DNA from: a virus
Reading direction: 5' to 3' (one strand)
DNA length: 64,000 bases
Virus record (IMG/VR): IMGVR_UViG_3300044640_002737
Location: 62,001-126,000 of that record
The notes under the pieces were generated by a model. That model saw nothing but the letters and a program-made list of their open reading frames with translations, was not told the origin of the DNA and searched no databases. Positions 1 to 62,084 of this stretch are shown one piece after another. The translations under genes were made by a program, and so were the position numbers. Position 1 is the first letter of the stretch. Each line of letters starts with the position of its first letter.

Positions 1-315
1 TTTACTATCCTATTATTAGTTTTATTGTTTGAATATTATTCAGTGAGATCAACGAGGATCAAGTTATTGGATGTCTGTCTTGTTGACGAGATATTACTTA
101 CTGATGATTTCGCAGTAAATGGAAAAAGCAAAGAATTTCCGGACGATCCTGTATATGTAACTGAAGCAGATCGGGAATATATTTTTTCTGATGCTGTTTA
201 TCAGGTTTCTCCTCCAGGTATTAAGGAAACACTAAAAAGCCATCGAATTTCTATATTAAATACGATGGCCTCTTTTATAATCTTTTATATACTATTGCAT
301 AATTACATAGCGTAA
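1..315 (+). CDS. C-terminal part of an unrecognised protein, open at the left edge
   Basis: The plus frame is open from base 1 to a TAA at 313-315, so the true start may lie outside the window; a TTG at 25 is the first possible internal start. The visible part begins hydrophobic, followed by a mixed, acidic soluble stretch that reads like real protein. The last 25 codons run through the terminator hairpin of the convergent operon and the stop overlaps the end of the opposing gene, which lowers confidence. No family recognised. Confidence 0.45.
   Translation, partial: FTILLLVLLFEYYSVRSTRIKLLDVCLVDEILLTDDFAVNGKSKEFPDDPVYVTEADREYIFSDAVYQVSPPGIKETLKSHRISILNTMASFIIFYILLHNYIA
233..270 (-). terminator. 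Rho-independent terminator of the 2866-303 operon
   Basis: Arms GCCATCG (239-245) and CGATGGC (263-269), followed on the minus strand by a run of five T. It lies about 33 bases past the stop of the last gene of the operon. Confidence 0.7.
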
Positions 316-1163
316 TTAGCACCTGACATAATTCCTTTATCTGTTAAGAATGTTCTATAAGCAAGATTAATTCTCTCTGCTGTTAATCCAGTTTCAGCTG
401 CCATCTTATTAACTGCCGCTCTATGAGCTTTAGTGATGTCTCTGAAGATTTCGTTTCTTCTTAGTGAATTAATAAGAGCAAAAACTTTAGATCCAACTTC
501 CAATTGCATTTTCTTTTGAGCTGCTCTTTGAGCTGCTGCTCTAGGTCCTGCTGCAATAGCTTCCTCTCTGTGTTTAGTAGAAACTGTAGGATCCTGAACT
601 GCTTCAGATGCCAAATTAGCTACTTGAGAAACCGGTTTATTTTGGAAAAATTCGTATGCTCTAAGTAATTTAGGGTAGATTGTCTCAGAAGAAGTTTCAC
701 CAGTACCATTAATTAGATTAACAAATTTGTTAACTGTACGTCCAACTGTTCTGATTGAATCAAGTCCAATGGCATCACCAAGAGCTGCAGTACTAACTTT
801 AAATGCTCTGCTGTCATCATCATATTCACCGAACTGATCGATACCATCAACCATTACCAAATATTTACCTGGATCATTTTCCTGAGCTTTTCCTAATGCC
901 CTTAGGTAAAGTGCTGCTAATTGTGGTTTAGTTAGAATTTGAAAATCCCTAGCAAGTGCTGCTTTTTCTCCACTTCCTAATTCTTCGTCATCCAGCCAAT
1001 CCATATCCTCGTCATCTTCTGATAAGTCATAAGTCATAGTGTCTTCATCGATATTAAAATCACCATCAGCATGGTTAGCCATCATATCATCATAAGCTTC
1101 ATTTATAATGTCGCTAGTTTCAGAGACATAAGCTTCGAATAATTTAATGTGTTTATTGTTCAT
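303..1163 (-). CDS. Capsid-targeted virion-type protein, function unknown
   Basis: 286 residues. The N-terminus has the leader shared by about twenty proteins here (HIKLFEAYVSE) and offers [ILV]-x-E sites (LFE, VSE) like those cut by T4-type prohead proteases. Residues 30-65 are very acidic; the C-terminal half is alanine-rich and probably helical. It has its own late-type box just upstream and is also the last gene of a five-gene operon. The body matches no family I know. A packaged head protein is inferred from leader and context only. Confidence 0.85.
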   Translation of the reverse strand: MNNKHIKLFEAYVSETSDIINEAYDDMMANHADGDFNIDEDTMTYDLSEDDEDMDWLDDEELGSGEKAALARDFQILTKPQLAALYLRALGKAQENDPGKYLVMVDGIDQFGEYDDDSRAFKVSTAALGDAIGLDSIRTVGRTVNKFVNLINGTGETSSETIYPKLLRAYEFFQNKPVSQVANLASEAVQDPTVSTKHREEAIAAGPRAAAQRAAQKKMQLEVGSKVFALINSLRRNEIFRDITKAHRAAVNKMAAETGLTAERINLAYRTFLTDKGIMSGANYAM

Positions 1164-1182
1164 ATTTTTTTATATTTTTATA

Positions 1183-1194
1183 ATCTATATATTC
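1183..1194 (-). promoter_or_regulatory. Late-type promoter box
   Basis: GAATATATAGAT on the minus strand, directly after the stop of the preceding gene and about 20 bases before the 1163 start codon. Confidence 0.6.
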
Positions 1195-1842
1195 TTAATC
1201 CAGAGATAATTCTCCCCCTTTTGCTCCACCAGCAAGAAGTTCTTTAGCTTTAGCAGCATCTATTAACTGTCCGCTTGTTATCATCTTCATTTTCTCTATG
1301 TCCTCCGGCTTATAGAATCTCTTCATCATAGGAAGACCAATATTTAGAAGATATGTCCCTGTCTTTTTAATACCACCTGGTGTAACACCTGTTCTTTTAA
1401 GAAGATCTACAAACTTCATAACGATCTCATCCATATCAGCAGCAGTAACTTCCCATTCACCTTCTGCCGAAGGATCGTGATCTTTTGTAGTTTCATCCAG
1501 CCATTTAGATATAGCTTTAGGATCCATTTTACCTTTAGCAGGATCGAAATAAAATTCAGCAAGTGCTTGTAGTGTGAGATCTTTGTTACATGTTTTACCA
1601 ACATTTCCTGGTTTACCCCCTCCAAACTTGATGCATGCTTTTTGAAAGATCTTTTTATAAGGCTCCATTATTGAAGCTTCGTCGTTTATGTCACCATCCA
1701 TCATCGTAACGATCTGTGGTGCTATACTTAGCGAGAATGGGTTTGCTATTGCTCTAGCAAAAACAGGCATGGTTTTAAATATACCAAGATCTGCCTCATT
1801 TAATTCAGAGTTAAATTCTGAATAGCTCTTTATCTTATCCAT
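1195..1842 (-). CDS. Capsid-targeted virion-type protein, function unknown
   Basis: 215 residues. Starts MDKIKSYSEF and has an LNE cleavage-type site at about residue 16, followed by AD. The body is mostly helical with hydrophobic patches and no recognised domain. The ATG overlaps the stop of the upstream gene, so translation is probably coupled. Second-last gene of the left-end late operon. Confidence 0.85.
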   Translation of the reverse strand: MDKIKSYSEFNSELNEADLGIFKTMPVFARAIANPFSLSIAPQIVTMMDGDINDEASIMEPYKKIFQKACIKFGGGKPGNVGKTCNKDLTLQALAEFYFDPAKGKMDPKAISKWLDETTKDHDPSAEGEWEVTAADMDEIVMKFVDLLKRTGVTPGGIKKTGTYLLNIGLPMMKRFYKPEDIEKMKMITSGQLIDAAKAKELLAGGAKGGELSLD

Positions 1843-2441
1843 TATAATTGATTTTTAATTTGCGAATAACTTTTGAGTGATCTAATTTGATCCTCAGTAA
1901 ATCCAAGATTTGATATTATATCATTGTATCTTGCACCATCATTTTCATATCTAAATAGAAGCTCGGGTGAATTTTTAATAGATTTGATTATGTAAGTGTT
2001 GTCATTATTGTTACCATTTCGGTCTCTTGACATTATCACATCAGCATTACTGAAGTACTTTCTAAGCAGCTGTGATGCCATTACAGGATTTGTCAAACTT
2101 ATTGAGTCATAGAATGCCTCATTTGAAACTGGTTCAAGTCCATGCCAGAACATTGATTCGTAGCTAGAAGGTTCAGCTGTATTATAAACCTCATCATCAA
2201 CATCTTCAATGTCCTTTATTGCATCACTGATGTCCTCTGGTTCCATCCCATGTAGATCCTCTAGAACTTGAAATGCAAATTCCTGAAATGTGTATGCGCT
2301 TCCAACAACAAGATATGATGAAATAGCATCACCCTGATCATAGCTAGCAATAGTACTTAGTGCAAATCCAAGAAGCTTTCTTTCACTCTTAACTGGTGGC
2401 TTGTCATCTTCGAATAGATTATATGGTGCTAGGTTTTTCAT
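1842..2441 (-). CDS. Capsid-targeted virion-type protein, function unknown
   Basis: 199 residues beginning MKNLAPYNLFEDD, a variant of the shared leader with an LFE site. The body is acidic with no recognised fold. An AGGGAT sequence lies before the ATG. It sits 11 bases after the upstream gene and overlaps the next one, so it is in the same operon. Confidence 0.85.
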   Translation of the reverse strand: MKNLAPYNLFEDDKPPVKSERKLLGFALSTIASYDQGDAISSYLVVGSAYTFQEFAFQVLEDLHGMEPEDISDAIKDIEDVDDEVYNTAEPSSYESMFWHGLEPVSNEAFYDSISLTNPVMASQLLRKYFSNADVIMSRDRNGNNNDNTYIIKSIKNSPELLFRYENDGARYNDIISNLGFTEDQIRSLKSYSQIKNQL

Positions 2442-2452
2442 CGTGATCCCTA

Positions 2453-2695
2453 TTATTTTTTAACCTCTTCTAAATGCACATCAACCAAATTCGTGATTAG
2501 ATCAAGCAATCTGTATTTGTCCTCAACGTTTTTAAATTTAGCATCGTTAATAAGCTCATCAATCTCTTTGGAAACTTTTTGAATCTTAGCTCCTGCTTTC
2601 TTATAGTATCTAGCGATCGGCATCATCTTCTGTGATGATTCATCCAGACGGTTATCAAAGTTGGTGTCCGCGTCAAATGGTGTAATGTATTTCAT
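2453..2695 (-). CDS. Small helical virion-type protein
   Basis: 80 residues, charged and almost certainly helical. The N-terminus (MKYITPFDAD, then LDE near residue 18) is a diverged form of the shared leader. It starts 6 bases after the stop of the 54-residue gene upstream. Function unknown; packaging into the head is inferred from the operon. Confidence 0.8.
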   Translation of the reverse strand: MKYITPFDADTNFDNRLDESSQKMMPIARYYKKAGAKIQKVSKEIDELINDAKFKNVEDKYRLLDLITNLVDVHLEEVKK

Positions 2696-2701
2696 AATAT
2701 C

Positions 2702-2866
2702 CTATTTCTGTTTTTGGTTCTGTGTTTTCTTGTCATCAACATCAACACAATTGGGCACGGTCTTGCCGTTCTTGATTTTGGTGCCAAGTTGTGTGTAACC
2801 AGGCCAGCATGGATTGCTGTCTCTTTTGGCTTTCTCCGTTATGTATTGGGTGTATGTTAATATCAT
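2702..2866 (-). CDS. 54-residue phage protein with leader and PCWPGY motif
   Basis: Short gene: ATG at 2866, TAG at 2704-2702. The start MILTYTQYITE is a clear capsid-targeting-type leader with an ITE site. It is followed by the motif PCWPGYxQxGTKxKNGK and then VPNC, a tag I know from many phage structural and hypothetical proteins. First gene of the left-end late operon, 4-5 bases after a late-type box. The motif's function is not known to me. Confidence 0.8.
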   Translation of the reverse strand: MILTYTQYITEKAKRDSNPCWPGYTQLGTKIKNGKTVPNCVDVDDKKTQNQKQK

Positions 2867-2869: not shown

Positions 2870-2878
2870 CTATATATC
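2870..2878 (-). promoter_or_regulatory. Late-type promoter box
   Basis: GATATATAG on the minus strand a few bases before the ATG at 2866; it would drive the five-gene operon 2866-303. Confidence 0.65.
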
Positions 2879-8776: not shown

Positions 8777-9088
8777 TTACCTAAACTTATTTGGAAAAAG
8801 TCTTCTTAGCTCATGTCCTTGTGGAATGTCTGATGTACGTATCCCGAATACTTTCTTCTCAGGACAAGTGTCTTCACCGTTGATAGTGAATCCATTATTA
8901 CATGCCCATGTCTCTATAGTTCTTGTGTATTGCTGTCCTTTCATGAAAGGGAATCTAACTCCTGCTTGGTTATCGATGTCTTCTATACGACCACCTAATA
9001 AGTTCACGGTGATTACCCTACCTTGTCTTGACTTGAAGACCAACTCTTTCTCGTGATGGAAAGATTCATATAGTTGGAGATGTTTCAT
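8777..9088 (-). CDS. Capsid-targeted virion-type protein, unknown
   Basis: 103 residues beginning MKHLQLYESF (LYE site). The body looks like a small beta-rich domain with two Cys (TWACNN, EDTCPEKK). Follows 9451-9110 in a late-type transcript. Function unknown. Confidence 0.8.
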   Translation of the reverse strand: MKHLQLYESFHHEKELVFKSRQGRVITVNLLGGRIEDIDNQAGVRFPFMKGQQYTRTIETWACNNGFTINGEDTCPEKKVFGIRTSDIPQGHELRRLFPNKFR

Positions 9089-11895: not shown

Positions 11896-12213
11896 TTATT
11901 CTATTTCCTTAGGTAATTGATATTCTTTTGTCTTCATAACCGCAGGAATTAAAGCAGCTTTTGCTTTTTTAATAGCACCACTATATCTAGCATCCAGTCC
12001 AGCTTCTTCAATTTCTGAAAGTAAGGAACCTATACCTCTTACAACATAATCAGCATTAACCATTGAATTATTAACATCGCCTGATTTACCGCTTTTTTCT
12101 TTAAGGTAAGATGTCTTCATGCTATCATTATCAGCAGGTATTGCAAGGAATACTGCGATACTAGGGAATCTACTCTTTGGTGAGTATCCTTCGAAAATTT
12201 TAAGATGTTTCAT
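11896..12213 (-). CDS. Capsid-targeted virion-type protein, unknown
   Basis: 105 residues beginning MKHLKIFEGY (IFE site). The rest is basic and largely helical. Own late-type box and terminator, so a single-gene late unit among early genes. Function unknown. Confidence 0.8.
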   Translation of the reverse strand: MKHLKIFEGYSPKSRFPSIAVFLAIPADNDSMKTSYLKEKSGKSGDVNNSMVNADYVVRGIGSLLSEIEEAGLDARYSGAIKKAKAALIPAVMKTKEYQLPKEIE

Positions 12214-12232: not shown

Positions 12233-12241
12233 CTATATATC
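12233..12241 (-). promoter_or_regulatory. Late-type promoter box
   Basis: GATATATAG about 20 bases before the ATG at 12213. Confidence 0.65.
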
Positions 12242-18924: not shown

Positions 18925-20018
18925 TAATAAGGACTCGAAATGATATTTGCCATATCATATTTTTTACTTAGTAACTGTGATGCCTGAACTTGAAGTCTGC
19001 GACGGTCGTAGTCGCTGATGTTGATACCGTTATCATGGGTAGCGAAATGCGTGACTCCATTTACAAGATCCCAGATTGTTGTTCCTGTTTTAGCACTCTT
19101 CTTTTGCTGTGGGTTTAACAAGATTGTATCGATGTTTGCACCGTGGAAACGTTCTCTCGTTGTGTGCAAAGGTACCCAAGCTTCCAACTCTTTATGCTCC
19201 GCATCTGAAAATCTTCTTAGAGCTTCGTGTGTTGACTCCAACTCGAATAGTGATGCTCTGGTGTTCATAGCTGCTCTTAGCTTCTCTTCGAATTGGAGAG
19301 GTTGAAATCCTCTATCGGCTAGAAGGTTTAATCTGTCCCAGAAACTTTCCATTGACATCCTGTCCATTTGACCAAGAGCCATACTCTCATCGAATGCTGT
19401 ACCAATCATACCATTTGCGCAAACCAATCGATACATGAAAGGTGAAACTCTAAAGCCACCCTCTGGGTTGTTAGTGAAGGTAACACCTCCGTAATGATCT
19501 TCGTCGCTTAACCCCTTTACACCCCAAGAGTTGTTAGGTGAAGATGCATTGATAACCACACCTCCGTTATCCCCAATTGAGAAGTTGTTTACTGATAGGT
19601 TGTACTTATCAATAATACGTCCGGTTGTCTCCATAAAGATCTGGTTGCTGATAAGATCTCTTGGATCCTTCTGTACACTAACGATCTCTCTGCTGTCAGG
19701 GTTAACTACCAATGATAGGCTCGTAGCCCCTTTAGCCTGAACAGCCACCTTTAACCTGTTAACTAAAGCCTGTCTAGCCTTATCCCCAAATGCTGAGGAG
19801 AATGTTTTGTCGAAACCTACCGGTAGGCCAACAACCTTACAGATACCTTTGAATGCATCGCTATTCATTCGGATAAGTTTATCCTCAACCTTTAGCGTGT
19901 TGGGTTTTACTATTTCGATATCCTTCAGACTGACTTCCTTTCTGATTGGAGTTTTTAAAATGGCCTCTGCTGATCTTTGGTCGAATAGAGATTGTGAGAT
20001 TGTTTCAAATTTTTTCAT
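18924..20018 (-). CDS. DUF932-like phage protein
   Basis: 364 residues, the normal size for the family. The central YRLVCANGMIG segment is the hallmark of DUF932 (phage/plasmid-like TIGR03299-type) proteins, whose role is unknown though they often lie near recombination genes. It sits directly downstream of the RecA-like gene but under its own promoter at 20041. Confidence 0.8.
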   Translation of the reverse strand: MKKFETISQSLFDQRSAEAILKTPIRKEVSLKDIEIVKPNTLKVEDKLIRMNSDAFKGICKVVGLPVGFDKTFSSAFGDKARQALVNRLKVAVQAKGATSLSLVVNPDSREIVSVQKDPRDLISNQIFMETTGRIIDKYNLSVNNFSIGDNGGVVINASSPNNSWGVKGLSDEDHYGGVTFTNNPEGGFRVSPFMYRLVCANGMIGTAFDESMALGQMDRMSMESFWDRLNLLADRGFQPLQFEEKLRAAMNTRASLFELESTHEALRRFSDAEHKELEAWVPLHTTRERFHGANIDTILLNPQQKKSAKTGTTIWDLVNGVTHFATHDNGINISDYDRRRLQVQASQLLSKKYDMANIISSPY

Positions 20019-21176: not shown

Positions 21177-21185
21177 GATATATAC
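21177..21185 (+). promoter_or_regulatory. Late-type promoter box
   Basis: GATATATAC about 28 bases before the ATG at 21213. Confidence 0.6.
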
Positions 21186-21212: not shown

Positions 21213-22040
21213 ATGGGAAAGATAAAATCATTCAACGAATATATCAACGAGAATAACATGGGTATTATTGCTATGGCAATAGGTCAGGCTGAATTGGAAG
21301 CAAGGGCTAAGGAAGAAAAAGCAAGAGCTGAAAAAGCTGGAGCTGAAGCAACCAATGCTACTATAGATTCGACGGTGTCCGGATACAGTGCAAAGAAATT
21401 TAATCCAGTTGCTGGTAATGATGACTTTGCTATCTACCTTCAACATCAGCAAGGACCTGCAGGTGCAGCTGGTTTAGTTAAGGCATTAAACGGAACAGGC
21501 AACTTAGCTTCCGATACGGTTAAAACTAAAGGTGGTGTTAAATACGCAAACATTGTTAAGAACATACCGAGTGATAAGCCTCAGGTTAAAGCTGACGTCA
21601 TTAAAGCACTAGACAACGGTGATGAGAAAACTGCATCAGCTTTATTCATGAATACTTGGAAAGAGAAATGGTTTGCTAAGCAAAAGCAGGCTATGACGGA
21701 AATAGAAAAACCCGCTAATGCTGCGGTTAAAGAAGCAATTCAAAAATACAGTATCCAATACTCTGTACCTTTTGACTTTGCTGTCACCGTTGCAATGATT
21801 GAATCTGGTCTTAATCCTAAGGCAGGTAATTCAACATATAAAGGTCTTTATGCAATCCAACCTAACAGTAACTACGGTGGTAAGACAATAGCAGTTGGTA
21901 AAGATTGGGCAAATGCAGATAGAAATGCAGAAGCTGGTATTAAGTTGTTAGCTTCACAGGTTAAAGGATTCAAAAAGTTATTAGGTGGTGATTGGGCATC
22001 ATTAAATGTTGGTGATTGGACTAATCAAGTAATCGCATAA
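21213..22040 (+). CDS. Capsid-targeted lytic transglycosylase
   Basis: 275 residues. Leader MGKIKSFNEYINEN with an INE site; residues 25-48 are a helical Ala/Glu/Lys-rich linker. The C-terminal 100 residues form a lysozyme-like SLT domain: VTVAMIESGLNP with catalytic Glu197, then YKGLYAIQPN. It should cut the glycan strands of peptidoglycan. With the leader and late-type box it is best read as a head-packaged or virion-borne wall hydrolase used at entry, not a holin-partnered endolysin; an endolysin role cannot be excluded. Confidence 0.85.
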   Translation: MGKIKSFNEYINENNMGIIAMAIGQAELEARAKEEKARAEKAGAEATNATIDSTVSGYSAKKFNPVAGNDDFAIYLQHQQGPAGAAGLVKALNGTGNLASDTVKTKGGVKYANIVKNIPSDKPQVKADVIKALDNGDEKTASALFMNTWKEKWFAKQKQAMTEIEKPANAAVKEAIQKYSIQYSVPFDFAVTVAMIESGLNPKAGNSTYKGLYAIQPNSNYGGKTIAVGKDWANADRNAEAGIKLLASQVKGFKKLLGGDWASLNVGDWTNQVIA

Positions 22041-22673: not shown

Positions 22674-22682
22674 GATATATAG
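22674..22682 (+). promoter_or_regulatory. Late-type promoter box
   Basis: GATATATAG 17 bases before the ATG at 22699. Confidence 0.7.
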
Positions 22683-22698: not shown

Positions 22699-23520
22699 AT
22701 GGAAAAATTAAAATCATTCTCCGAATTTCTGGCAGAGGCACAGATACCTTTAAGTAACCCTGAAGCTGCTGGTGATGCATTAACCGATATACTAGCTAAG
22801 AATAGAAATGTACAGGAAGAACCTAGCGGAAGCAATAAAGGTGTGGAGATAAAGAAATATCTCGCCAGTGTTGGATTGAAAGAAGGTTTACCATGGTGCA
22901 TGGCATTTGTGTATTATGTGTTTGATGAATTCTCTAAGAAACTAGGAGCTACCAATCCATTACCTAAGACCGGCGGTGTAAAGTATCACTGGGATAAAGC
23001 ACCAGCAGATTTAAAGATAACTGTAGACCAAGTAAGGAAAGACATCAATCTTCTTAGACCAGGACAGATATTTATGATGAGTAGAGCTGGTGGTAAAGGA
23101 CTTGGACATACAGGAATAGTTATTAGTGTGGATCCTGCTAAGAAAACTTTTACTACAATAGAAGGTAATACGAGTGATCAGAAATCAGGAGAAGGTGATA
23201 GAGTTGGTGTTAATGTTAGAAAGATAACGGATAAAAACATATTCGGATTCATTGATTATTTTAAAACATCAAGAACACCTGCATTTGAAGATGATTTAAT
23301 AAAGAGCGCTGGGGGAATTGGTGGAAGACTTGGTTCCATCCCAAACACCCCGGTTCCTGATTCATCAAGTTTACCTAGTGATAGTGTGGTTGGATTCTCG
23401 GCAGAACCAGCCAGAGGATTTGTTAGTAGTATATTATCAGGTATAGCAAAAGCAGTAAGTGGTAAGGATCTTAATCTATCAAATGAAGAATTAGCAAAGG
23501 TGCTAACCAACCTTAGATAA
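22699..23520 (+). CDS. Capsid-targeted CHAP-type peptidoglycan hydrolase
   Basis: 273 residues. Leader MEKLKSFSEFLAEA with an LAE site, nearly the T4 internal-protein form. Residues 55-190 fit a CHAP amidase/endopeptidase: LPWCMAFV with Cys67, GHTGIVIS with His137, and IEGNTS with Glu155/Asn157. The C-terminal 80 residues are a Ser/Pro-rich linker and a helical end with no known domain. It would cut peptide bonds or the amide link in peptidoglycan; with the transglycosylase at 21213 it forms a pair of virion-type wall hydrolases. Confidence 0.85.
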   Translation: MEKLKSFSEFLAEAQIPLSNPEAAGDALTDILAKNRNVQEEPSGSNKGVEIKKYLASVGLKEGLPWCMAFVYYVFDEFSKKLGATNPLPKTGGVKYHWDKAPADLKITVDQVRKDINLLRPGQIFMMSRAGGKGLGHTGIVISVDPAKKTFTTIEGNTSDQKSGEGDRVGVNVRKITDKNIFGFIDYFKTSRTPAFEDDLIKSAGGIGGRLGSIPNTPVPDSSSLPSDSVVGFSAEPARGFVSSILSGIAKAVSGKDLNLSNEELAKVLTNLR

Positions 23521-30304: not shown

Positions 30305-30922
30305 TTATATGATATTACCATCCGCATCAAATTCATAATCTATTAAGGTTGCTGTTACAGATTCATCAGAAGATAGATCCTCGTATGCCTTTTCTAATTT
30401 GCGGTATAACTCATCAGCTTTTCCTTTAGCCCATTCTTCTACTTTAGGTTGTATCAATTCACATTGTTGTTCAACATCCAAAGTCACATTAACATCCGGA
30501 CCGATATAAATCTCAACCTCATCGTCTCCATCAACTTCCACCTCGGCTACCATAGTATTACTGTGTGAGTATCTGCTATCGGTTTTTTTAATTGAGATAT
30601 AAATGTTCTCCAAGACCTCTTTAGGAACTGCCATACCAATTTCTTTGTTAACCAATATTGATTTGTCCTCGTCTCCTCTAACCACCCCGGTAAAAGAAGC
30701 TCCATCACCTTGACTCCAAAATCCTGAATACTCAACCTCAACATCACTAACCCCAGCCTTTTCCATATCCTCGACAAAGCCTTCTATATAAGGATCTGCC
30801 CAACTGTCATAATCCACGTTGATATTACGAGCATTATCTATAGCGTTAGCCTTGGCCGAATCCGATAGGTCTTCAAAGCTTATGCCCTGTTTGAATGATT
30901 CGAATGTTTTAATTGTTTTCAT
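30305..30922 (-). CDS. Conserved phage protein with leader-like start
   Basis: 205 residues. The start MKTIKTFESFKQG resembles the capsid-targeting leader, but the gene is behind an early-type promoter, so the match may be chance. The body (LSDSAKANAIDNARNINVDYDSW and YSGFWSQGDGASFTG) is a phage family of unknown function. ATG at 30922 avoids overlap with the previous gene. Confidence 0.8.
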   Translation of the reverse strand: MKTIKTFESFKQGISFEDLSDSAKANAIDNARNINVDYDSWADPYIEGFVEDMEKAGVSDVEVEYSGFWSQGDGASFTGVVRGDEDKSILVNKEIGMAVPKEVLENIYISIKKTDSRYSHSNTMVAEVEVDGDDEVEIYIGPDVNVTLDVEQQCELIQPKVEEWAKGKADELYRKLEKAYEDLSSDESVTATLIDYEFDADGNII

Positions 30923-31729: not shown

Positions 31730-32509
31730 TTATAATTGAAGCTTTGGTAACTCCCATATGACTTGTTTAAGAGAAGAGATCACTGCATTACTTCTGGTTC
31801 TGGCTTGCCAACGGTGTGAAGGTCTAAGAGATCTTTCGAATGATTCAAGCAACTCGTTCCTTAACTCCTCGTCAACCTTAACCAACTTAACCCCGTCTTC
31901 CCAGTCTGCTAACCCTTCACCCTTATCACCCTCGTCATATAGGTCAGTGGCGTAGTTAACCAACGATTCCGATGCTATCTCGCATTCCCATTCGTCATCC
32001 CCGATCTCCACACAGTATTGGTATTCCTCGGGTAGGTCATCTGTGTTAACTACCCATACCCCGCCGCCTACCTCGGGCTTACCTACTAGGATACCAAGCT
32101 GATCCGATATGTGTAGGTTAGCGAACCCTGTAAACTTGGTCTTAGCAGATGGGTAGTCAACCTCCATCTTAGTTCTAGCGTCCTCTTGGTTAGCTGGATG
32201 GTCTGGATGTGAATCGAACCAGTCTCCCTCATAAAGCTCTTTGAACTTCTTGATCGCTGAGGGTTCGTCCGCTATCCCTTTCTGGATTAGCTTGGTGTAG
32301 TACTGGGGATCTTCAGATACGTGATCCATCGCAATCTCCTCGGCCTTCTCTCTATCTGTGGTGTGTTCCATTTCAACTTCAATGCCCACCGCCAGTTGTT
32401 TATGGATGTCTTCAACTTCTACACCGTGGGATGCAGCAAGTTGGTCTATGGTCATCCCGGAGGCTCTGCCACCTGGGATATGTTCTTCGAATAGTTTGAT
32501 GTGTTTCAT
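31730..32509 (-). CDS. Capsid-targeted protein with DUF5661-like domain
   Basis: 259 residues. Leader MKHIKLFEEH (LFE). Residues 18-72 (GIEVEMEHTTDREKAEEIA, then DHVSEDPQYYTKL) fit the DUF5661 pattern of a small helical domain in phages. The C-terminal part is acidic, then basic at the end. Behind a late-type box, so probably a packaged protein. Function unknown. Confidence 0.85.
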   Translation of the reverse strand: MKHIKLFEEHIPGGRASGMTIDQLAASHGVEVEDIHKQLAVGIEVEMEHTTDREKAEEIAMDHVSEDPQYYTKLIQKGIADEPSAIKKFKELYEGDWFDSHPDHPANQEDARTKMEVDYPSAKTKFTGFANLHISDQLGILVGKPEVGGGVWVVNTDDLPEEYQYCVEIGDDEWECEIASESLVNYATDLYDEGDKGEGLADWEDGVKLVKVDEELRNELLESFERSLRPSHRWQARTRSNAVISSLKQVIWELPKLQL

Positions 32510-32512: not shown

Positions 32513-32521
32513 CTATATATC
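32513..32521 (-). promoter_or_regulatory. Late-type promoter box
   Basis: GATATATAG immediately before the ATG at 32509. Confidence 0.65.
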
Positions 32522-33574: not shown

Positions 33575-33583
33575 GATATATAG
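33575..33583 (+). promoter_or_regulatory. Late-type promoter box
   Basis: GATATATAG four bases before the ATG at 33587. Confidence 0.7.
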
Positions 33584-33586: not shown

Positions 33587-33988
33587 ATGAAACACATTGA
33601 ACTATTCGAGAAGTTTATATCCGAATCATCTAATACTCATTTAGTACAGGTGTCACCAAACCAATATCTGTATCACACGTCCAATCCCATATTTAGAGAC
33701 ACAATCTCAAGAGAGGGTCTGGTGCCAAAGGGAAAGGGTGAAAGCTGGCTATCTGATACCGACATTGATGGTGAAGTCATCTTTGCAGTTAACAGTGATG
33801 ATAAGAAGGATTGGTGGGATTCCACATACGATGATGACATCTATAGAATAGATACAGGTGGTCTAAGTAACACGTGGTACGTTGATCCCAACTTTGAACC
33901 TGAAGACAAGAGAGTTATCACATTTGAAAAGATCCCGCCCGCATCAATCGAATTAATTCATAAAGGTGCCGGCGATTCCACGTTATAG
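33587..33988 (+). CDS. Capsid-targeted ADP-ribosyltransferase-fold protein
   Basis: 133 residues. Leader MKHIELFEKFISES with an ISE site. The body has YLYHTS (His30-Thr31), a turn GLVPKGKG, strand VIFAVNSD, strand DIYRIDT, WYVDPNF and the end PPASIELIHKG, the pattern of small ART/KptA-like proteins. T4 packs the ADP-ribosyltransferase Alt behind the same kind of leader, so an injected NAD-using enzyme is plausible. The active-site Glu is not certain. Confidence 0.7.
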   Translation: MKHIELFEKFISESSNTHLVQVSPNQYLYHTSNPIFRDTISREGLVPKGKGESWLSDTDIDGEVIFAVNSDDKKDWWDSTYDDDIYRIDTGGLSNTWYVDPNFEPEDKRVITFEKIPPASIELIHKGAGDSTL

Positions 33989-34023: not shown

Positions 34024-34596
34024 ATGAAACACATTAAATTATTCGAAGCATTTAGCGACGAGCATGGCGTACTTAATGAACTGGCTAGCAAGGAGTCCGA
34101 TCCTAAAGTGATAGTTGATTTTTTTAAGAAGAATCCAAAAGCAAAACAAGCAGCTGGAAATTGTAAGGCTCTGCTAAAAGCAATGAGAGGTACAGGAACT
34201 GACGAGGATGCAGTATATGCAGTTTTTTCCAAGATTAAAACAAAGGAAGAGCTAATTGAACTGTCTTCAATTTGGGATTTACTTGGACTGGAATATGATA
34301 AATACCAAGGAATAGGATCACTGATACCTGCACTAATAGGAACTCCAGATGCTTTCACTAAACACGTTAGTAATCAATGGAAACTTTATCCACTAACAAT
34401 AAAGGACATATTCTCAAGCTGGGACAAGAATGAACATAAGAACGTTAATGCTTATTATAAAGCAAGAGAGGATTACTATAAGAAAAATCCAAATATGAAA
34501 TCAACAGCTCTTAGTTACTGGTTGAAAGAGGAGCTAGACGAAGAAGAACTTGCAAAGGTTAATAGCATCATTAAGAAATTCGGAATGAAATTCTAA
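34024..34596 (+). CDS. Capsid-targeted annexin-like protein
   Basis: 190 residues. Leader MKHIKLFEAF (LFE). At about residues 55-90, LLKAMRGTGTDEDAVYAVF closely follows the annexin repeat with its G-x-GTDE calcium loop. The C-terminus (YWLKEELDEEELAKVNSII) resembles the helices ending such a repeat. Only one clear repeat, where eukaryotic annexins have four. Membrane or calcium binding is inferred from the motif. Confidence 0.7.
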   Translation: MKHIKLFEAFSDEHGVLNELASKESDPKVIVDFFKKNPKAKQAAGNCKALLKAMRGTGTDEDAVYAVFSKIKTKEELIELSSIWDLLGLEYDKYQGIGSLIPALIGTPDAFTKHVSNQWKLYPLTIKDIFSSWDKNEHKNVNAYYKAREDYYKKNPNMKSTALSYWLKEELDEEELAKVNSIIKKFGMKF

Positions 34597-34685: not shown

Positions 34686-35384
34686 ATGAAAAAGATTATT
34701 TTAGGTGCTGTGGTTGCTCTGCTATTCAGCTGCAACACAAGTACAAAACCAGAAACTGTTGAAGACATCAAGAAGGACAAGGACACCATAGTGAAAGTTC
34801 ACCAAGGAGCTTTTGCTTTTTGTGGTGCATCAGCAGCAGTTCCTACAGGAAGAAAGATTGTTGTACAGGGGGTTGAGTATGCTGAAGGGTGTGCAATATG
34901 TCCAGTGCTATCAGGACCATCGCTATCCAATCTAGCAATGGAAGGTGTTAGTGGAACCTACGGAGATTTCAATGTAAAGAAAAACTTTCAAAGCCCAGAT
35001 GGAACAGCTAATACTGTGTGGTCATTATTCTGGTACTACGATGCATCAACAACAATTCCTCAATTCAATCCAACAACAAAGGAATGGGAAATGATGGCTC
35101 CTGTGAATAGAGCATTCGTCATCGACTTAGATTCACCAGCTACAAGTGAGAGCAACATGTTTGCAATGCCGGGTGTTATCGTTGATACAACATCAACAGG
35201 TATCGTGTTGGCTAAAGTTTATGGTCCACTTAATGAAGCAGCAGTTCCATTACGAATAGCAGTTCCTGTTAAGAATGGACAGACTTCTGTAACTGCAGCT
35301 AAAGTAGGATTTCCTTATCCTGTAGGAACACCAGTTCCAGTTGCTGAGTACAGTAAGGAACTTCAAAGCAAGGGAAAGCAATAA
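34686..35384 (+). CDS. Late-type lipoprotein, function unknown
   Basis: 232 residues. Signal sequence with lipobox LFSC (Cys16). The mature part has a CAICPV Cys pair, is Thr/Ser/Pro-rich and beta-like, with a repeated PVPV-type end. No capsid leader although a late-type box precedes it. May be a host-envelope or virion-surface lipoprotein. Confidence 0.8.
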   Translation: MKKIILGAVVALLFSCNTSTKPETVEDIKKDKDTIVKVHQGAFAFCGASAAVPTGRKIVVQGVEYAEGCAICPVLSGPSLSNLAMEGVSGTYGDFNVKKNFQSPDGTANTVWSLFWYYDASTTIPQFNPTTKEWEMMAPVNRAFVIDLDSPATSESNMFAMPGVIVDTTSTGIVLAKVYGPLNEAAVPLRIAVPVKNGQTSVTAAKVGFPYPVGTPVPVAEYSKELQSKGKQ

Positions 35385-43051: not shown

Positions 43052-43060
43052 GATATATAG
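43052..43060 (+). promoter_or_regulatory. Late-type promoter box
   Basis: GATATATAG 20 bases before the ATG at 43081. Confidence 0.7.
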
Positions 43061-43080: not shown

Positions 43081-43332
43081 ATGAAACATATTAGATTATT
43101 TGAGGATTTTGCAGGGAAGCCTGAATTTATATTCCTATTCAAGGATAAAGGTTTGGACCTTAGCACAATTGAGGTTGATGGTATAGATACTAATGATAGA
43201 CCAGACTTCGTTGACTCATACGTTTCCTATGCTGAATACACGGACGGAACACCACTTACTGAAGTTGAACTAGACGAACTTAATTCGATGCATCCAGAGA
43301 TTGCACAGGATTGGGCGAACGAAAATGCATAA
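43081..43332 (+). CDS. Capsid-targeted small acidic protein
   Basis: 83 residues. Leader MKHIRLFEDF (LFE), then an acidic alpha/beta body. Five bases before the next leader-bearing gene. Function unknown. Confidence 0.8.
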   Translation: MKHIRLFEDFAGKPEFIFLFKDKGLDLSTIEVDGIDTNDRPDFVDSYVSYAEYTDGTPLTEVELDELNSMHPEIAQDWANENA

Positions 43333-43336: not shown

Positions 43337-43843
43337 ATGAAGTATATAAAATCTTTCAGCTCGCATATAAATGAATCACTCATAGACATTTCTCCAGAAC
43401 TTGATACTGAGATAGAGGATGCTATTGCGGCCATTCTTAAAAACAAAGAATGTAATCAAGTAGATACCGGGTATATTGAAATAGAAACCCCGTTTGAATT
43501 AAATCCGGATGTTCCTAATAAGGAATGGATAAACAAAACTGGTATGGTTTTTTATCCCGAGCTTTTAACATATGGTAGCTCTGATAGATCAGGTAAAGTC
43601 CAAAGAACACCATGGATTGCATGTTCCATTGAGATTGAGGGTGAGAAGGATGATTCATTAATTAAAGAATTACTTAATTGGCTTGTTGAGCTAATAAAGA
43701 AATCAGGTTATCAACCATTTATGGACGAGGATGCTAGATGGAATCATTGGAACGAAGATAAAAGAAAGGACTGGACAAAGTTTACATGTTATATAAATCC
43801 TAGTTATCCGGAAGGACATTGGGAAAATCACGCATTAGAATAA
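43337..43843 (+). CDS. Capsid-targeted virion-type protein, unknown
   Basis: 168 residues starting MKYIKSFSSHINES (INE site). The body is alpha/beta with two helices and Trp-rich segments; no known family. Start at 43337 chosen because it restores the leader; earlier starts overlap the previous gene. Confidence 0.8.
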   Translation: MKYIKSFSSHINESLIDISPELDTEIEDAIAAILKNKECNQVDTGYIEIETPFELNPDVPNKEWINKTGMVFYPELLTYGSSDRSGKVQRTPWIACSIEIEGEKDDSLIKELLNWLVELIKKSGYQPFMDEDARWNHWNEDKRKDWTKFTCYINPSYPEGHWENHALE

Positions 43844-44938: not shown

Positions 44939-44947
44939 GATATATAC
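44939..44947 (+). promoter_or_regulatory. Late-type promoter box
   Basis: GATATATAC three bases before the ATG at 44951. Confidence 0.55.
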
Positions 44948-44950: not shown

Positions 44951-46009
44951 ATGAAAAACCTAAGAACATTCAGATTATTTGAGGCTGAAAAAGCTTTACA
45001 TCCAGAAGCTGAGGAGTTTATGAAAGCATTAAATTCTACGGAGTGGGGTAAAAAACTAGAATCACTTATTAAAACCAAACCAGTAAAGACTGGAAGAGTA
45101 TATGTAACCAGCCGATTCCTTCCTGTTATGACCTACTTCTGGAAAACAGGATCCAATTGGAATTATACCTACAGCTCATCGGGAAGAGATTACGGAAAAC
45201 AAACATCATCCGATCTTTCTAAACTGTTCGAAGAAATGGTTATTGACTGTATTAAGAAGGTGGCTCCAAGCGGTTTTACTAGAAACGAAGTTGATAAGAT
45301 GGTTTCGGATAAGAAATGGATATTGGCTAATGCCAGTATGGATTCTCTTTCTGGAGGTGATATTTATAAGAAATATAGGGAAAGCTTTAATCCTGGTGTT
45401 CTAAATGACTTTAGTAAAATAAGAACCCCTTTAATGGACAGACTTCTTCTTAATGGATTAAGTACATCTAGTGTTAATAAGGATGATTCTATCACCATGA
45501 ATTTTTCTCATCAAGTATACGGAGAGCATAATAAATCGTGGCCATTCCATATTATAGCTTCCCTCCTTAAAGGTAGCGGAATGGTTGTCTTTAAGAATGG
45601 TATTGACACTGTCAACATTTCTCCTGGTAAACCAGGAAGCGAAGTGAAAACATCCAAATATAGAGATCGTTATATAAGAATTAAAATGAAGCTCGGCTAT
45701 CAGAATAGTTATCCGATGATACAGAAGATTGATGAAATTTTAACTAAATACATTAAGAAGGTTGAAATATTTATAACTGATAAAAATGGATCAAAAAAAT
45801 CGGATATACTTACTAACCTATATCACGATATCGCTTTATCTGATAATGATGGTTCATGGCAGGAAATCCTGGATGAGTACATTAAAAAGAATCCGCTGGA
45901 TATAATTAAGCTAAATGGTAATCCTGAAATGAAAGCGGAGGTTCTTAAAAGAACTGGAATAAGAGATTATAGCAAGATCGCATCAGGACTTGATATAGGT
46001 ATAATCTAA
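44951..46009 (+). CDS. Capsid-targeted large virion-type protein, unknown
   Basis: 352 residues. Leader MKNLRTFRLFEAEK (LFE). The body is basic with Tyr- and Ser-rich segments and an internal GSKKSDILTNLYHDI region; no known family. At this size a virion enzyme or structural role is possible. Confidence 0.8.
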   Translation: MKNLRTFRLFEAEKALHPEAEEFMKALNSTEWGKKLESLIKTKPVKTGRVYVTSRFLPVMTYFWKTGSNWNYTYSSSGRDYGKQTSSDLSKLFEEMVIDCIKKVAPSGFTRNEVDKMVSDKKWILANASMDSLSGGDIYKKYRESFNPGVLNDFSKIRTPLMDRLLLNGLSTSSVNKDDSITMNFSHQVYGEHNKSWPFHIIASLLKGSGMVVFKNGIDTVNISPGKPGSEVKTSKYRDRYIRIKMKLGYQNSYPMIQKIDEILTKYIKKVEIFITDKNGSKKSDILTNLYHDIALSDNDGSWQEILDEYIKKNPLDIIKLNGNPEMKAEVLKRTGIRDYSKIASGLDIGII

Positions 46010-46111: not shown

Positions 46112-46120
46112 GATATATAG
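46112..46120 (+). promoter_or_regulatory. Late-type promoter box
   Basis: GATATATAG directly after the terminator and 19 bases before the ATG at 46139. Confidence 0.7.
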
Positions 46121-46138: not shown

Positions 46139-46498
46139 ATGGAAAACATAAAAATATATTCTGATTTTGTTAATGAGAATAGCAACGTTCCGCAATTAGC
46201 ATCTAATGATACCGATTCAACTCCTGCTTTAAGAAGCGAGACTGAGGTTGTTACAAGAGAGCAGGAAGCTATGAGAGCTAAATTGGAAGCTGATGTTAAA
46301 AGAATGTACCCACATTTATCAATCAGACACACCCCAGATGGACAATCAGGTGTAGCTATTAATGACAATGTAATATATGCTTCAGACCACTATGAAGCTT
46401 TCAATGCTTTTCTATTTGGATTAGTCATGGCTAAGATGAGCGGAGGTAATCCCAATATGGGTGATAGACCAGCTGGAAGAATTCCGACAAGATATTAA
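46139..46498 (+). CDS. Capsid-targeted virion-type protein, unknown
   Basis: 119 residues. Leader MENIKIYSDFVNEN (VNE site). The middle is helical and charged; the end is Gly/Pro-rich. Function unknown. Confidence 0.8.
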   Translation: MENIKIYSDFVNENSNVPQLASNDTDSTPALRSETEVVTREQEAMRAKLEADVKRMYPHLSIRHTPDGQSGVAINDNVIYASDHYEAFNAFLFGLVMAKMSGGNPNMGDRPAGRIPTRY

Positions 46499-46546: not shown

Positions 46547-47020
46547 TTAATTGGTCTTCTTTATAGGAGATTGATATCTTTCTACCCATGATGGGAATTC
46601 TTCCAATATATCAGTTTTCGAATCACTATAACCATACTTCAGATACCCTTTAGCATTACCTACATAATAATTATCCTTGGGATTACCTGATATTTTTTTG
46701 TAGGTAAAGTCTATAATATATCCATTAAGAAATATAGCTACATGATCTTTAATATCGCCATTTCCCTGGAAATATATCACCTTTACTGGTATACCAAGTA
46801 GCTCACACCATCTAAAAAACTCCTGTGTGTACCATGAGTCATCGCCGTATTTAACGTTGTATGGCTTATCCTTTCCCGTAATATAATCTTTTCTAACCAC
46901 ACCTAAAAATTGTTCAGCCAGACTCTTGTAATCCTCCTTAAAATTAGGTACGCTGGTTACAACCGGTAGATAGTCTGCGTTTGCTGCTGTATATGATTCG
47001 TATACTGTTAGATGTTTCAT
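46547..47020 (-). CDS. Capsid-targeted cysteine-peptidase-like protein
   Basis: 157 residues. Leader MKHLTVYESY (VYE). The body shows RWCELLG, then VKVIYFQ, DHVAIFLNGYIIDFTYK and a Tyr/Lys-rich end. A Cys, a His before a strand and an Asp after it, in this order, fit the transglutaminase/papain-like fold. A protease or transferase delivered with DNA is plausible; the fold call needs structure comparison. Confidence 0.65.
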   Translation of the reverse strand: MKHLTVYESYTAANADYLPVVTSVPNFKEDYKSLAEQFLGVVRKDYITGKDKPYNVKYGDDSWYTQEFFRWCELLGIPVKVIYFQGNGDIKDHVAIFLNGYIIDFTYKKISGNPKDNYYVGNAKGYLKYGYSDSKTDILEEFPSWVERYQSPIKKTN

Positions 47021-47023: not shown

Positions 47024-47032
47024 GTATATATC
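47024..47032 (-). promoter_or_regulatory. Late-type promoter box
   Basis: GATATATAC just before the ATG at 47020. Confidence 0.6.
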
Positions 47033-47665: not shown

Positions 47666-48022
47666 ATGCAATATATTAAAGATTATCCGAGTTTAAATAT
47701 TAATGAGGCCAAAAGCGAATCTTTTGAGGAATTTTCTAATGTGAGATTAGCTGGTGCTACAAAGATAGCTGATTCAGCAAAGGAAAAAGGTGGTGATGCC
47801 ATGCTCACTTATCATCACTTTGTAGTTAAGCTGCCAACATATAGAAAAGCTGGTGATGGTAAATTCGATCTTGATAAAGCTAAGGATGAGTATAAGGATC
47901 TGATGGATAAACTTTATTCATCAACTTATAAGAAAATGGATATTACTCCGGTGGAATTTCAGGAGCTTGTTGGAAGAATAGAGGTTGTTGGTGAATTGAT
48001 AATCAGATACGAGAAGGATTAA
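47666..48022 (+). CDS. Capsid-targeted virion-type protein, unknown
   Basis: 118 residues. Start MQYIKDYPSLNINEA has an INE site and the leader pattern. The body is helical and basic. Function unknown. Confidence 0.75.
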   Translation: MQYIKDYPSLNINEAKSESFEEFSNVRLAGATKIADSAKEKGGDAMLTYHHFVVKLPTYRKAGDGKFDLDKAKDEYKDLMDKLYSSTYKKMDITPVEFQELVGRIEVVGELIIRYEKD

Positions 48023-59586: not shown

Positions 59587-59623
59587 ATTTTCTTTTTTTC
59601 ATTGATTTAATCTTAAACCTCTC

Positions 59624-59728
59624 TTATAATCTATCAGAACCATTAGTATGATCTAAAGTTTTATAAGAGCCAATTATTTTCTCAACCCAATTAAACATGT
59701 CATACTTATTGTTTGAAATTACCGACAT
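59624..59728 (-). CDS. 34-residue peptide
   Basis: ATG at 59728, TAA at 59626-59624. Helical start, polar end. Has its own early-type promoter 25 bases upstream. Confidence 0.55.
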   Translation of the reverse strand: MSVISNNKYDMFNWVEKIIGSYKTLDHTNGSDRL

Positions 59729-59752
59729 ATTAATTTAAACTAGTTAATAATT

Positions 59753-59790
59753 TGTAAATATAAGTATTATATGCGGGAATATAAAAAAAT
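59753..59790 (-). promoter_or_regulatory. Early-type promoter
   Basis: TTTTTTTATATTCC and TATATTTAC; drives 59728 and probably 59586-56970. Confidence 0.6.
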
Positions 59791-59800
59791 TTCGGAAATA

Positions 59801-59809
59801 AATATATAG
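59801..59809 (+). promoter_or_regulatory. Late-type promoter box
   Basis: AATATATAG two bases before the ATG at 59812; back to back with the early-type promoter. Confidence 0.55.
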
Positions 59810-59811
59810 AG

Positions 59812-60120
59812 ATGGATAACTTGAATCCCGTAACATATTATATTGTATATCATATGTTTAGAAAATTAATTCCTCTATGGACCCCGATAGTTTTAAACGT
59901 GAACAAAAAGAAAAAAATAAGAACACTAATTCTTATCCTAGCAACTTTCTTCAATCCATTGGGATTCGACGCACTATTCGCTCTTGTGATGAAGTGGACT
60001 GGATCATATTGGGTAACCGATATAATTTTCTATTCCATATCGGCATTGTTTTTTGGATTGTATTATTTATTGAAGCCAGAAAATAAAGTCGACTTAAATG
60101 AAAAAGAGATCACTATCTAG
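59812..60120 (+). CDS. Three-helix membrane protein
   Basis: 102 residues with three membrane segments and a basic loop (NKKKKIR). No capsid leader (MDNLNPVTYY) despite a late-type box. Ends in TAG within a terminator hairpin, overlapping the convergent gene. Holin-like size and topology, but this is only a guess. Confidence 0.75.
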   Translation: MDNLNPVTYYIVYHMFRKLIPLWTPIVLNVNKKKKIRTLILILATFFNPLGFDALFALVMKWTGSYWVTDIIFYSISALFFGLYYLLKPENKVDLNEKEITI

Positions 60121-60135
60121 CAGCGATCTCTCTTC
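60102..60135. terminator. Terminator inside two convergent gene ends
   Basis: Stem AGAGATC/GATCTCT spanning both stop codons, with A run before and T-rich run after. Confidence 0.65.
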
Positions 60136-60292
60136 TTCTATTCTCTTTCACTGTTCTTAATGCTTTCTCATAAGCATCAACAGCAAGTGAACCTTCGTCT
60201 ATATGTTTTTTTGCAAGATCGAACACCTTTCTGTGTATTTTAAGATTATATGCCTCGTACATAATCTCTTCAATTTGCTCTGAATTTGTCAT
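60113..60292 (-). CDS. 59-residue helical protein
   Basis: ATG at 60292, TAG at 60115-60113; helical, charged, ends with EIAAR. Overlaps the end of the membrane-protein gene on the other strand. Confidence 0.75.
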   Translation of the reverse strand: MTNSEQIEEIMYEAYNLKIHRKVFDLAKKHIDEGSLAVDAYEKALRTVKENRRREIAAR

Positions 60293-60313
60293 AGTTATTT
60301 AAAATTATTTTTA

Positions 60314-60346
60314 ATAAAAAACCAGAGTCTTAAAAAGACTCTGGTG
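60314..60346 (-). terminator. Terminator of 61397-60433
   Basis: Stem ACCAGAGTCT/AGACTCTGGT with T run on the minus strand. Confidence 0.85.
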
Positions 60347-60432
60347 AACCAAAACAAACATCTATGATTGTCTATTACTAAACCTCTTAGTGTTCTATTT
60401 TTATATCACCTATTTGATGTTATGTTTCAAAA

Positions 60433-60648
60433 TTATTTTCTATTTCTAAGTATAAACATCAAGCATTTAGCTTCTTCAAATTTATCCTCTGATTCTAGGT
60501 TTTTTATAATGTGATCCGGATGATTTCCATTTAACAACTTAAATAATGAGTCGACCATTTCTGAGCCCCATTTTTCTTTAGCTTCCTGAACATCCCTAGA
60601 TTTTATTATAATGGCACCAAACATAGATTTATATATCAAATAATTCAT
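60433..60648 (-). CDS. Helical 71-residue protein, unknown
   Basis: Charged helices, ATG overlaps the stop of the M28 peptidase gene. Function unknown. Confidence 0.75.
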   Translation of the reverse strand: MNYLIYKSMFGAIIIKSRDVQEAKEKWGSEMVDSLFKLLNGNHPDHIIKNLESEDKFEEAKCLMFILRNRK

Positions 60649-61397
60649 TATTCCGAAACTATGGGTACAAGAACCTCGTTGACAAAATCATACATATCTT
60701 TTGTTGATAACTTATCCGCAGTGTCCTCCATGGTATGACACAACCACCATGATGAGTTATCTAAATATCCTGACTCACTCAATATACTAGATTCTCCTTC
60801 ATTCAATAGCGATAATGGGTTTATTACATTGGTATCTATGCCATATCTTTCAAATGCATAAGAATCGCTAGGAGGAGTTTGAACTACTGGTGCATTAAAC
60901 ATCTCGACAATCCTGTCTGTAAGTTTACCCTTATGTGATCCTATCATAAAATTCTTACCGCCAGCTCCACTTAATTCCAAATTTAATACCCATTCAATTT
61001 CTCCAAATTCTCCAGCCAATATTTGTTCTGCCAAATGTGATGCACCTCTAAGACCAACCTCCTCGGCATCTGTCAGAACTACATTGATCTCAGGAAGTAT
61101 CGATTTTAAATATATCGCATTAAGGACTGATGCTGAATTGTCATTCGCATTCTCAGAATCTGGATTAACTATATCATGATGTGCTACCACCATTCTTTTG
61201 CTGGTTCCTCTCAATATCACATTATATAGATTTATATCATTGAACAGGAAGCTGTCAATTTCATAAGGTATTTTCATCTCATCTAAAAGATCAATGATAA
61301 ATCTAACTCTTGGTGTTGGCTCAGCTCCATTTAGGTATGCTGGTCCTGCATTTTTAACAGAGCAGAAAGGTCTTAAAGATTCTAATATCTTATTCAT
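60648..61397 (-). CDS. M28-family metallopeptidase
   Basis: 249 residues. VVAHHDIV with His73 and Asp75, ANDNSAS with bridging Asp86, TDAEEVGLRG with Glu112/Glu113, and the distal His in LCHTMEDTADKLS: all zinc ligands and the general base are present. Aminopeptidase-type domain of normal catalytic core size, without signal peptide, so it acts in the cytosol. Unusual for a phage; substrate unknown. Confidence 0.9.
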   Translation of the reverse strand: MNKILESLRPFCSVKNAGPAYLNGAEPTPRVRFIIDLLDEMKIPYEIDSFLFNDINLYNVILRGTSKRMVVAHHDIVNPDSENANDNSASVLNAIYLKSILPEINVVLTDAEEVGLRGASHLAEQILAGEFGEIEWVLNLELSGAGGKNFMIGSHKGKLTDRIVEMFNAPVVQTPPSDSYAFERYGIDTNVINPLSLLNEGESSILSESGYLDNSSWWLCHTMEDTADKLSTKDMYDFVNEVLVPIVSE

Positions 61398-61409
61398 ATT
61401 TGATTTTTT

Positions 61410-61442
61410 GTAAATGTATTAAAATGTTACGGGTATAAAAAA
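61410..61442 (-). promoter_or_regulatory. Early-type promoter, weak
   Basis: TTTTTATACCC and TACATTTAC; drives 61397-60433; back to back with the late box at 61444. Confidence 0.55.
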
Positions 61443-61443
61443 T

Positions 61444-61452
61444 GATATATAG
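61444..61452 (+). promoter_or_regulatory. Late-type promoter box
   Basis: GATATATAG 23 bases before the GTG at 61476. Confidence 0.65.
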
Positions 61453-61475
61453 ATTAAATTAAATATAAGCTAATA

Positions 61476-62084
61476 GTGATAAATCTTCTAAAATTCTCCG
61501 ATCTATTTGAATCTGCTAATTATTCATATACAATTGATGATGTTAAGGCTCTTCCTACTTTTAAGGTATTGGAAACATTAGGGTTTACTGATTCCACTAC
61601 CAATGCAATATGGAGTCATGGTAACATGAGATTATATAACAACGAGCTTGATATGGATGCACCGGACACAGCTATCACGATATATCAGAATGGACCAATA
61701 AGAAAGTCTACCGCAAGTTTTTATAGAAACGTGAGGGGAATCAATAAGGGTAATCCTCATATATTAAAAGAATTCGATGCACCAATACAAAATCTAAATG
61801 ATTGGAATTCAAGATTTCTCTACATTCTATCATGGGCTAAGAAGAGATATAAGAGGTATAAAAGCATAGATCTTGGTCATTTCGACAGAGTACCCAAGGA
61901 TAAACTTGGCGAATACCTAGTATCAGCTTATAAAGGTGATATTGATAATTTCCTTATGATCTATCCTATATTGAAGAAGGAAGAGAAAGAATTATTCCTT
62001 TCCTCCATCAATCTAGAATCTGATGAATTTGATAAAATTATTGACAGATATAAATCATTCAAAAACAAGTTACCTCTTATTTAA
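61476..62084 (+). CDS. Capsid-targeted virion-type protein, unknown (GTG start)
   Basis: 202 residues from a GTG start. Leader MINLLKFSDLFESA (LFE). The body is basic, with a helical C-terminal half (LKKEEKELFLSSINLESDE). The GTG is kept because it restores the leader and fits the late box. Function unknown. Confidence 0.8.
   Translation: MINLLKFSDLFESANYSYTIDDVKALPTFKVLETLGFTDSTTNAIWSHGNMRLYNNELDMDAPDTAITIYQNGPIRKSTASFYRNVRGINKGNPHILKEFDAPIQNLNDWNSRFLYILSWAKKRYKRYKSIDLGHFDRVPKDKLGEYLVSAYKGDIDNFLMIYPILKKEEKELFLSSINLESDEFDKIIDRYKSFKNKLPLI

Follow-up and report, generated by a model that had tools for sequence, protein, structure and literature searches.

In phage T4, the internal proteins and Alt carry a leader, are packed in the head, are cut by the prohead protease after [LI]-x-E and are injected. 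In the leader of IPIII (MKTYQEFIAE/A; here and below a slash marks the cut, which in all other proteins is a predicted one), targeting requires residues 4 and 7 (Tyr4 and Phe7), processing requires residues 8 and 10, and a foreign protein is packaged when fused to these ten residues (PMC9026906). In the giant phages phiKZ and SPN3US, head proteins are likewise processed by a prohead protease, and part of them are delivered; in these phages, however, most propeptides are longer than 100 residues, a shared short tag is not described, and the protein set is a different one (PMC5694885, PMC13282480). The leader analyzed here is shared by many genes of the phage represented by the IMG/VR record IMGVR_UViG_3300044640_002737 (373,467 bp in total). 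The analysis was centered on a stretch of 64,000 nucleotides (bases 62001-126000 of the record, hereinafter the window), where an earlier note, made from the sequence alone, had noticed about twenty proteins with a T4-like capsid-targeting leader. It is very likely that this leader is a T4-type capsid-targeting propeptide, borne by dozens of proteins that would be packaged in the head and cut; that these proteins are also injected into the host, as the analogy with T4 suggests, appears likely, to a lesser degree.

As in T4 (IPI, IPII, IPIII and the Alt propeptide), a short putative N-terminal propeptide is found on otherwise unrelated proteins, with hydrophobic or aromatic residues at positions 4 and 7 and an [IL]-x-E end, and the genome harbors a gp21-type protease. 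Since [IL]4 and [FY]7 are conserved as in T4, they may have the same targeting role. The two systems differ in position 4 (Ile/Leu here, Tyr/Phe in T4), in the number of carriers (an estimated 40-60 or so here, about four in T4), in the cargo, which is mostly unrelated to that of T4, and in the late-type box GATATATA of this phage. A hidden Markov model (HMM) of environmental leaders, run on 210 T4 open reading frames (ORFs; 129 kb), ranked IPIII, IPII and IPI 3rd, 5th and 7th; at 4.2-6.4 bits these are modest scores, and further T4 ORFs rank between the three, so that the result points to a kinship of the signal and not to an identity. T4 gp61.1 (18966-19130, 54 residues), which starts with MKTFKEFIKE, outranks IPIII in this search and may be an unrecognised internal protein.

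The source phage has a gp23-like major capsid protein (L006:16306-18009) whose top matches come from an uncultured 462-kb phage, with 46% identity, and from Prevotella Lak megaphages, with identities of 38-46% (mostly 43-44%), followed by further huge phages and by Flavobacterium and Tenacibaculum phages. These matches indicate a huge T4-related myovirus, whose host is probably a member of Bacteroidota. Along with the capsid protein gene, the head cluster (about 302-342 kb of the genome) includes genes for an S77 (gp21-type) protease and for two gp20-like portal proteins. The two portal genes are in tandem (L007:11782-13398, 538 residues, and L007:13403-15001, 532 residues), and their products are possibly two distinct portal subunits.

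Every gene listed in the earlier note is present as an open frame, and the observation of a shared start is thus confirmed. The motif by which the leader had been described, M-K-x-[IL]-K-x-[FY], fits 4 of the approximately 19 genes (11896, 31730, 34024 and 43337; window genes are named by their first coordinate) and not the remainder, and it also fits gene 30305, absent from that list; being too strict, it was dropped and replaced by M-x2-[IL]4-x2-[FY]7. Own-genome counts cover 223 of the 373 kb. The new motif is found at 36/321 gene starts and at 10/999 internal methionines (p=6e-15), and an HMM built from 277 leaders of other phages, the source phage being left out, retrieved 36/346 genes at the threshold of at least 6 bits, compared with 1/930 internal-methionine controls. 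The leader thus exceeds chance in every control used, and leader genes extend beyond the window. A rough extrapolation suggests about 40-60 leader genes in the whole genome, an estimate that may be high because GATATATA boxes and head genes partly guided the choice of the stretches beyond the window.

Independent evidence on the cleavage site comes from environmental proteins. IMG/VR was scanned for DNA encoding MKHIKLFE alone, which fixes residues 1-8 and leaves all the following ones unforced; at least 127 distinct proteins were obtained, and the following figures refer to the matches listed. Position 10 is F, Y or W in 96% of the 127 proteins, and [ILVFM]11-x-E13 is present in 68 of them; windows taken at random from these proteins give 2% (maximum 6.4%). 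In bits per position, the information content is 1.77 at position 13, 0.49 at position 14 and 0.1-0.2 further on. F10-[ILV]11-x-E13 is therefore kept though unforced, and conservation ends directly after Glu13, as expected of the footprint of a propeptide that would be cut there. The bodies are highly diverse, the 126 tested falling into 91 unrelated clusters (73 of them singletons), and in a small sample of related contigs 255 tagged proteins gave 187 body clusters. In an AlphaFold model of a leader protein built from five relatives, residues 1-17 are disordered and the body is confidently folded.

The shared starts might, in principle, derive from a copied 5' cassette (promoter and start codon region) devoid of any function at the protein level, and the upstream DNA is indeed near-identical at some genes of this phage (starts 32509 and 33587). 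However, the eight identical residues of MKHIKLFE are encoded by 56 distinct 24-mers among 132, which indicates selection on the protein, and F7, F10, E13 and A14 of the CHAP gene leader are invariant in seven divergent orthologues (50-61% identical). A cassette, contradicted by this codon diversity and synonymous divergence, was rejected, and its probability is close to nil.

A gp21-like prohead protease, whose presence the earlier note had proposed to check, does exist in the genome: PF03420 matches at 321562-321912 (E 3.4e-9, over the cut-off), and the protein also matches the head maturation protease phrog_207 (4.6e-37). Protease and scaffold are fused in a single protein of 656 residues (L006:18026-19996; genome 320026-321996, minus strand). 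In the scaffold part, the 14-residue repeat Y-x-x-[YH]-[LIV]-[AG]-E is present in 13 copies, so that self-cleavage-type sites lie exactly 14 residues apart, and the repeat YSEYLAE is close to the end of the CHAP gene leader, FSEFLAE. The motif L-[NY]-E/[SND], in the form LNE in this phage, is conserved in the capsid protein close to the position at which T4 gp23 is cut, and is the predicted cut site. Scaffold, capsid protein and leaders all bear an [LIV]-x-E-type site and therefore seem to offer one type of site to one protease. Among 23 large leader-bearing contigs, 16 yielded an S77 protease; the proteases of these 16 carry similar sites, with the 14-residue spacing retained to varying degree (the ladder is weak in the 462-kb phage). 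An S77 match was also obtained in each of the nine complete reference records searched, and in six it is over the Pfam cut-off. The capsid-targeting nature of the leader is thus well supported by the protease, the matching sites in scaffold and capsid protein, the stop at Glu13 and the retrieval of T4 IPI-III.

Some points weigh against this interpretation. The leader is typically of 13 residues here and of 10 in T4, with [ILV]-x-E three residues further on. A clean [ILV]-x-E past the core, which the earlier note had claimed throughout, holds in about half of the leader genes of the window and is missing from the other half; in genes 8777, 11896, 31730, 43081, 46547 and 30305, the Glu lies only within the core (LFE, IFE, LYE, VYE, TFE). 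No protease was found in 7 of the 23 leader-bearing contigs, which are fragments. Several leader proteins are encoded in the head gene cluster and could be structural or scaffold parts that are not injected. The genes that lack a second site, together with a short helix that AlphaFold places with low confidence at residues 7-13, would also fit a tag that docks the proteins to some other phage structure or compartment (tail, membrane or replication site), [ILV]-x-E being part of a helix and not a cut site. Such a tag is very improbable, however, because conservation stops exactly at Glu13, the same site is laddered in the S77-fused scaffold and recurs at the likely cut of the capsid protein, the leader has no hydrophobic signal, and the HMM recovers T4 IPI-III. 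The location of some leader-like starts beside the capsid and protease genes (e.g., those of the coiled-coil-like proteins L006:14173-15063 and L006:15070-16212) has a different bearing: the leader might target proteins to the prohead core and be cut, but the proteins would be scaffold, core or head-stabilising components that stay in the head or leave it before packaging, few or none being injected.

The cargo bears directly on this last alternative. In agreement with the wall hydrolases predicted in the earlier note, Pfam assigns SLT to gene 21213 and CHAP to gene 22699, and a second SLT gene is located outside the window; the own-genome cargo also includes a RimK-type ATP-grasp protein and DUF5661, the majority of the bodies being without assigned function. 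The RimK-type ATP-grasp ligase (L012:5114-6574), with leader and late-type box, is possibly an injected protein-modifying enzyme. In relatives, the leader precedes GNAT, NUDIX, DNA polymerase X, lysozyme, nucleotidyltransferase, AAA ATPase and 2H phosphoesterase bodies. More distant CHAP homologues in other phages are without leader. That so many bodies are enzymes apparently aimed at the host (SLT, CHAP, RimK, GNAT, NUDIX, Acb1-like, lysozyme), and that the repertoire differs strongly among phages, unlike structural cores, speaks against purely structural components. On the other side, DUF5661 is located in Vibrio phage VPs20 (L173:2395-3663) within a DUF2213 protein, i.e., of head protease type, which suggests that it is a head-associated domain. 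On the whole, a structural role without injection appears unlikely.

DUF5661 bodies carry different tags in different phage lineages, as if each lineage had a tag of its own: a 140-kb contig has MKHIKLFEEFINE/E, the 462-kb phage has MEFVKTYLEFINE/Q and Flavobacterium phage immuto has MKKSQLRQIIKE/A. Immuto resembles the source phage in having an S77 protease, gp20, gp23 and a recurring short N-terminus on unrelated proteins, including a relative of DUF5661; it differs in the leader sequence, none of its 41 ORFs matching the leader HMM. Several unrelated immuto proteins (L033) start with MKKSQLRxIIKE or MENFDLKKFLVE, and such starts may serve that lineage as its head tag.

Other functional labels of the earlier note fared differently. 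The annexin-like (34024) and peptidase-like (46547) proteins have no Pfam support, and the only relatives found for them, as for gene 303, are near-identical copies of the source phage. For gene 33587, possibly ART-like as labeled, no Pfam match was found and a PDB sequence search gave chance matches only; its single-sequence AlphaFold model (mean predicted local distance difference test score 36) is unusable. The 2H phosphoesterases of the relatives can be assigned by fold as Acb1-like. Five of them bear a leader (L090:979-1518, L058:3747-4295, L128:1757-2359, L143:8006-8554 and L149:2337-2882), and the two HxT motifs of the family, HCT and HMT, are invariant. Pfam Acb1 is barely over the cut-off in 2/5, with a score about equal to that of 2'-5' RNA ligase, and by sequence alone the best PDB phmmer hit has an E of only 0.37; in the fold search, the best PDB matches are the phage phosphodiesterase BCSR5 and Acb1 (template modeling score 0.45-0.53). 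Homologues in 634- and 642-kb phages begin with leader-like tags, and that of Maribacter phage Molly does not.

Taken as a T4-type propeptide, the leader would act late in infection: through [IL]4 and [FY]7, like Tyr4 and Phe7 of T4 IPIII, it would attach proteins with unrelated bodies to the scaffold core while the head is forming. The gp21-type S77 protease, in one polypeptide with its site-laddered scaffold, would then cut the leader after [ILV]-x-Glu, typically Glu13, at the same stage at which scaffold and capsid protein are cut. The freed bodies would remain beside the DNA within the head, and delivery into the host is probable for many of them.

The timing is suggested by the box GATATATA, of which the window has 16 copies where 6 would be expected; 11 of the 16 precede a leader gene by no more than 40 bases. 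An [AG]ATATATA box is present within 50 bases upstream of 23/35 leader genes and of 32/286 other genes (p=5e-12), and several of the non-leader genes having it look structural. The box resembles a late promoter and may act as one.

The leader genes of the window are arranged as follows. The first block includes five genes on the minus strand: 303..1163 (286 residues, MNNKHIKLFEAYVSE/T, HMM 26.7 bits, body of no assigned family), with an ATATATA box 30 nt upstream; 1195..1842 (215 residues, MDKIKSYSEFNSELNE/A, 12.5 bits); and three weak members, i.e., 1842..2441 (199 residues, MKNLAPYNLFE/DD, only 2.5 bits, [IL]4 and [FY]7 being kept), 2453..2695 (80 residues, MKYITPFDADTNFDNRLDE/S, 5.1 bits) and 2702..2866 (54 residues, MILTYTQYITE/KAKRDSNPCWPGYTQ..VPNCV, with a CWxGY/VPNCV module), the last one directly preceded by a GATATATA box at 2871..2878 (minus strand). 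A relative of 2702..2866 in L058 has a clear leader, MKKVLLFEEFLDE. In two cyanophages, the protein with the same module (NPCWxGYxxxGTK...VPNCV) also holds DUF5661 and adjoins the small terminase gene.

Two further minus-strand genes are 8777..9088 (103 residues, MKHLQLYESFHHE, 20.3 bits), whose leader is retained in orthologues at 58-59% identity, and 11896..12213 (105 residues, MKHLKIFEGY, 17.5 bits), with a box at 12234..12241 (minus strand). The hydrolase genes are both on the plus strand: 21213..22040 (275 residues, MGKIKSFNEYINE/N, 16.8 bits, SLT lytic transglycosylase over the Pfam cut-off), with a box at 21177..21184 (plus) and an orthologue in L020 that retains the leader, and 22699..23520 (273 residues, MEKLKSFSEFLAE/A, 13.5 bits, CHAP amidase/peptidase, Pfam 2e-10), with a box at 22674..22681 (plus). 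They are followed on the minus strand by 30305..30922 (205 residues, MKTIKTFESF, 18.0 bits), missed in the earlier note, and 31730..32509 (259 residues, MKHIKLFEEH, 25.0 bits, DUF5661, PF18905 9e-13), with a box at 32514..32521 (minus).

On the plus strand, a box at 33575..33582 precedes 33587..33988 (133 residues, MKHIELFEKFISE/S, 27.4 bits), whose homologue L096:7227-7787 is also leader-bearing, and 34024..34596 (190 residues, MKHIKLFEAFSDE/H, 31.7 bits). A lipoprotein-like gene (MKKIILGAVVALLFSCN; 34686-35384) lies under a GATATATA box between leader genes. A box at 43052..43059 (plus) precedes 43081..43332 (83 residues, MKHIRLFEDF, 23.4 bits) and 43337..43843 (168 residues, MKYIKSFSSHINE/S, 24.6 bits), both on the plus strand, as are 44951..46009 (352 residues, MKNLRTFRLFE/A, 7.1 bits; box at 44939..44946, plus) and 46139..46498 (119 residues, MENIKIYSDFVNE/N, 17.9 bits; box at 46112..46119, plus). 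Gene 46547..47020 (157 residues, MKHLTVYESY, 6.5 bits) and its box (47025..47032) are on the minus strand. The last two genes are on the plus strand: 47666..48022 (118 residues, MQYIKDYPSLNINE/A, 5.1 bits), whose body is kept in immuto with a different N-terminus, MRLLELLRE/A, and the weak member 61476..62084 (GTG start, 202 residues, MINLLKFSDLFE/S), with a GATATATA box at 61444..61451 (plus), 25-32 nt upstream.

The kind of signal is already known from T4; what appears to be undescribed in the literature searched (most subscription journals being outside its scope) is its scale, together with the ladder in the protease-scaffold protein and the list of cargo, and neither this leader nor a large set of capsid-targeting sequences in huge or Bacteroidota phages was found there. 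According to a 2026 review, Tad1 is the sole anti-defence protein described to date in jumbo phages (PMC13282480), and a head-tagged Acb1-like enzyme would therefore be new. It seems more probable than not that huge phages use the capsid for protein delivery, one sequence-readable tag marking the effectors, which would number dozens per genome and include counter-defence enzymes packed beforehand, like the Acb1-like ones. In that case, it would be possible to predict directly from the sequence, with exact N-termini, which proteins an uncultured huge phage injects. Since huge phages are mostly uncultured and most of their genes have no known function, the tag could single out, among their hypothetical proteins, hundreds of candidates for early effectors or counter-defence proteins.

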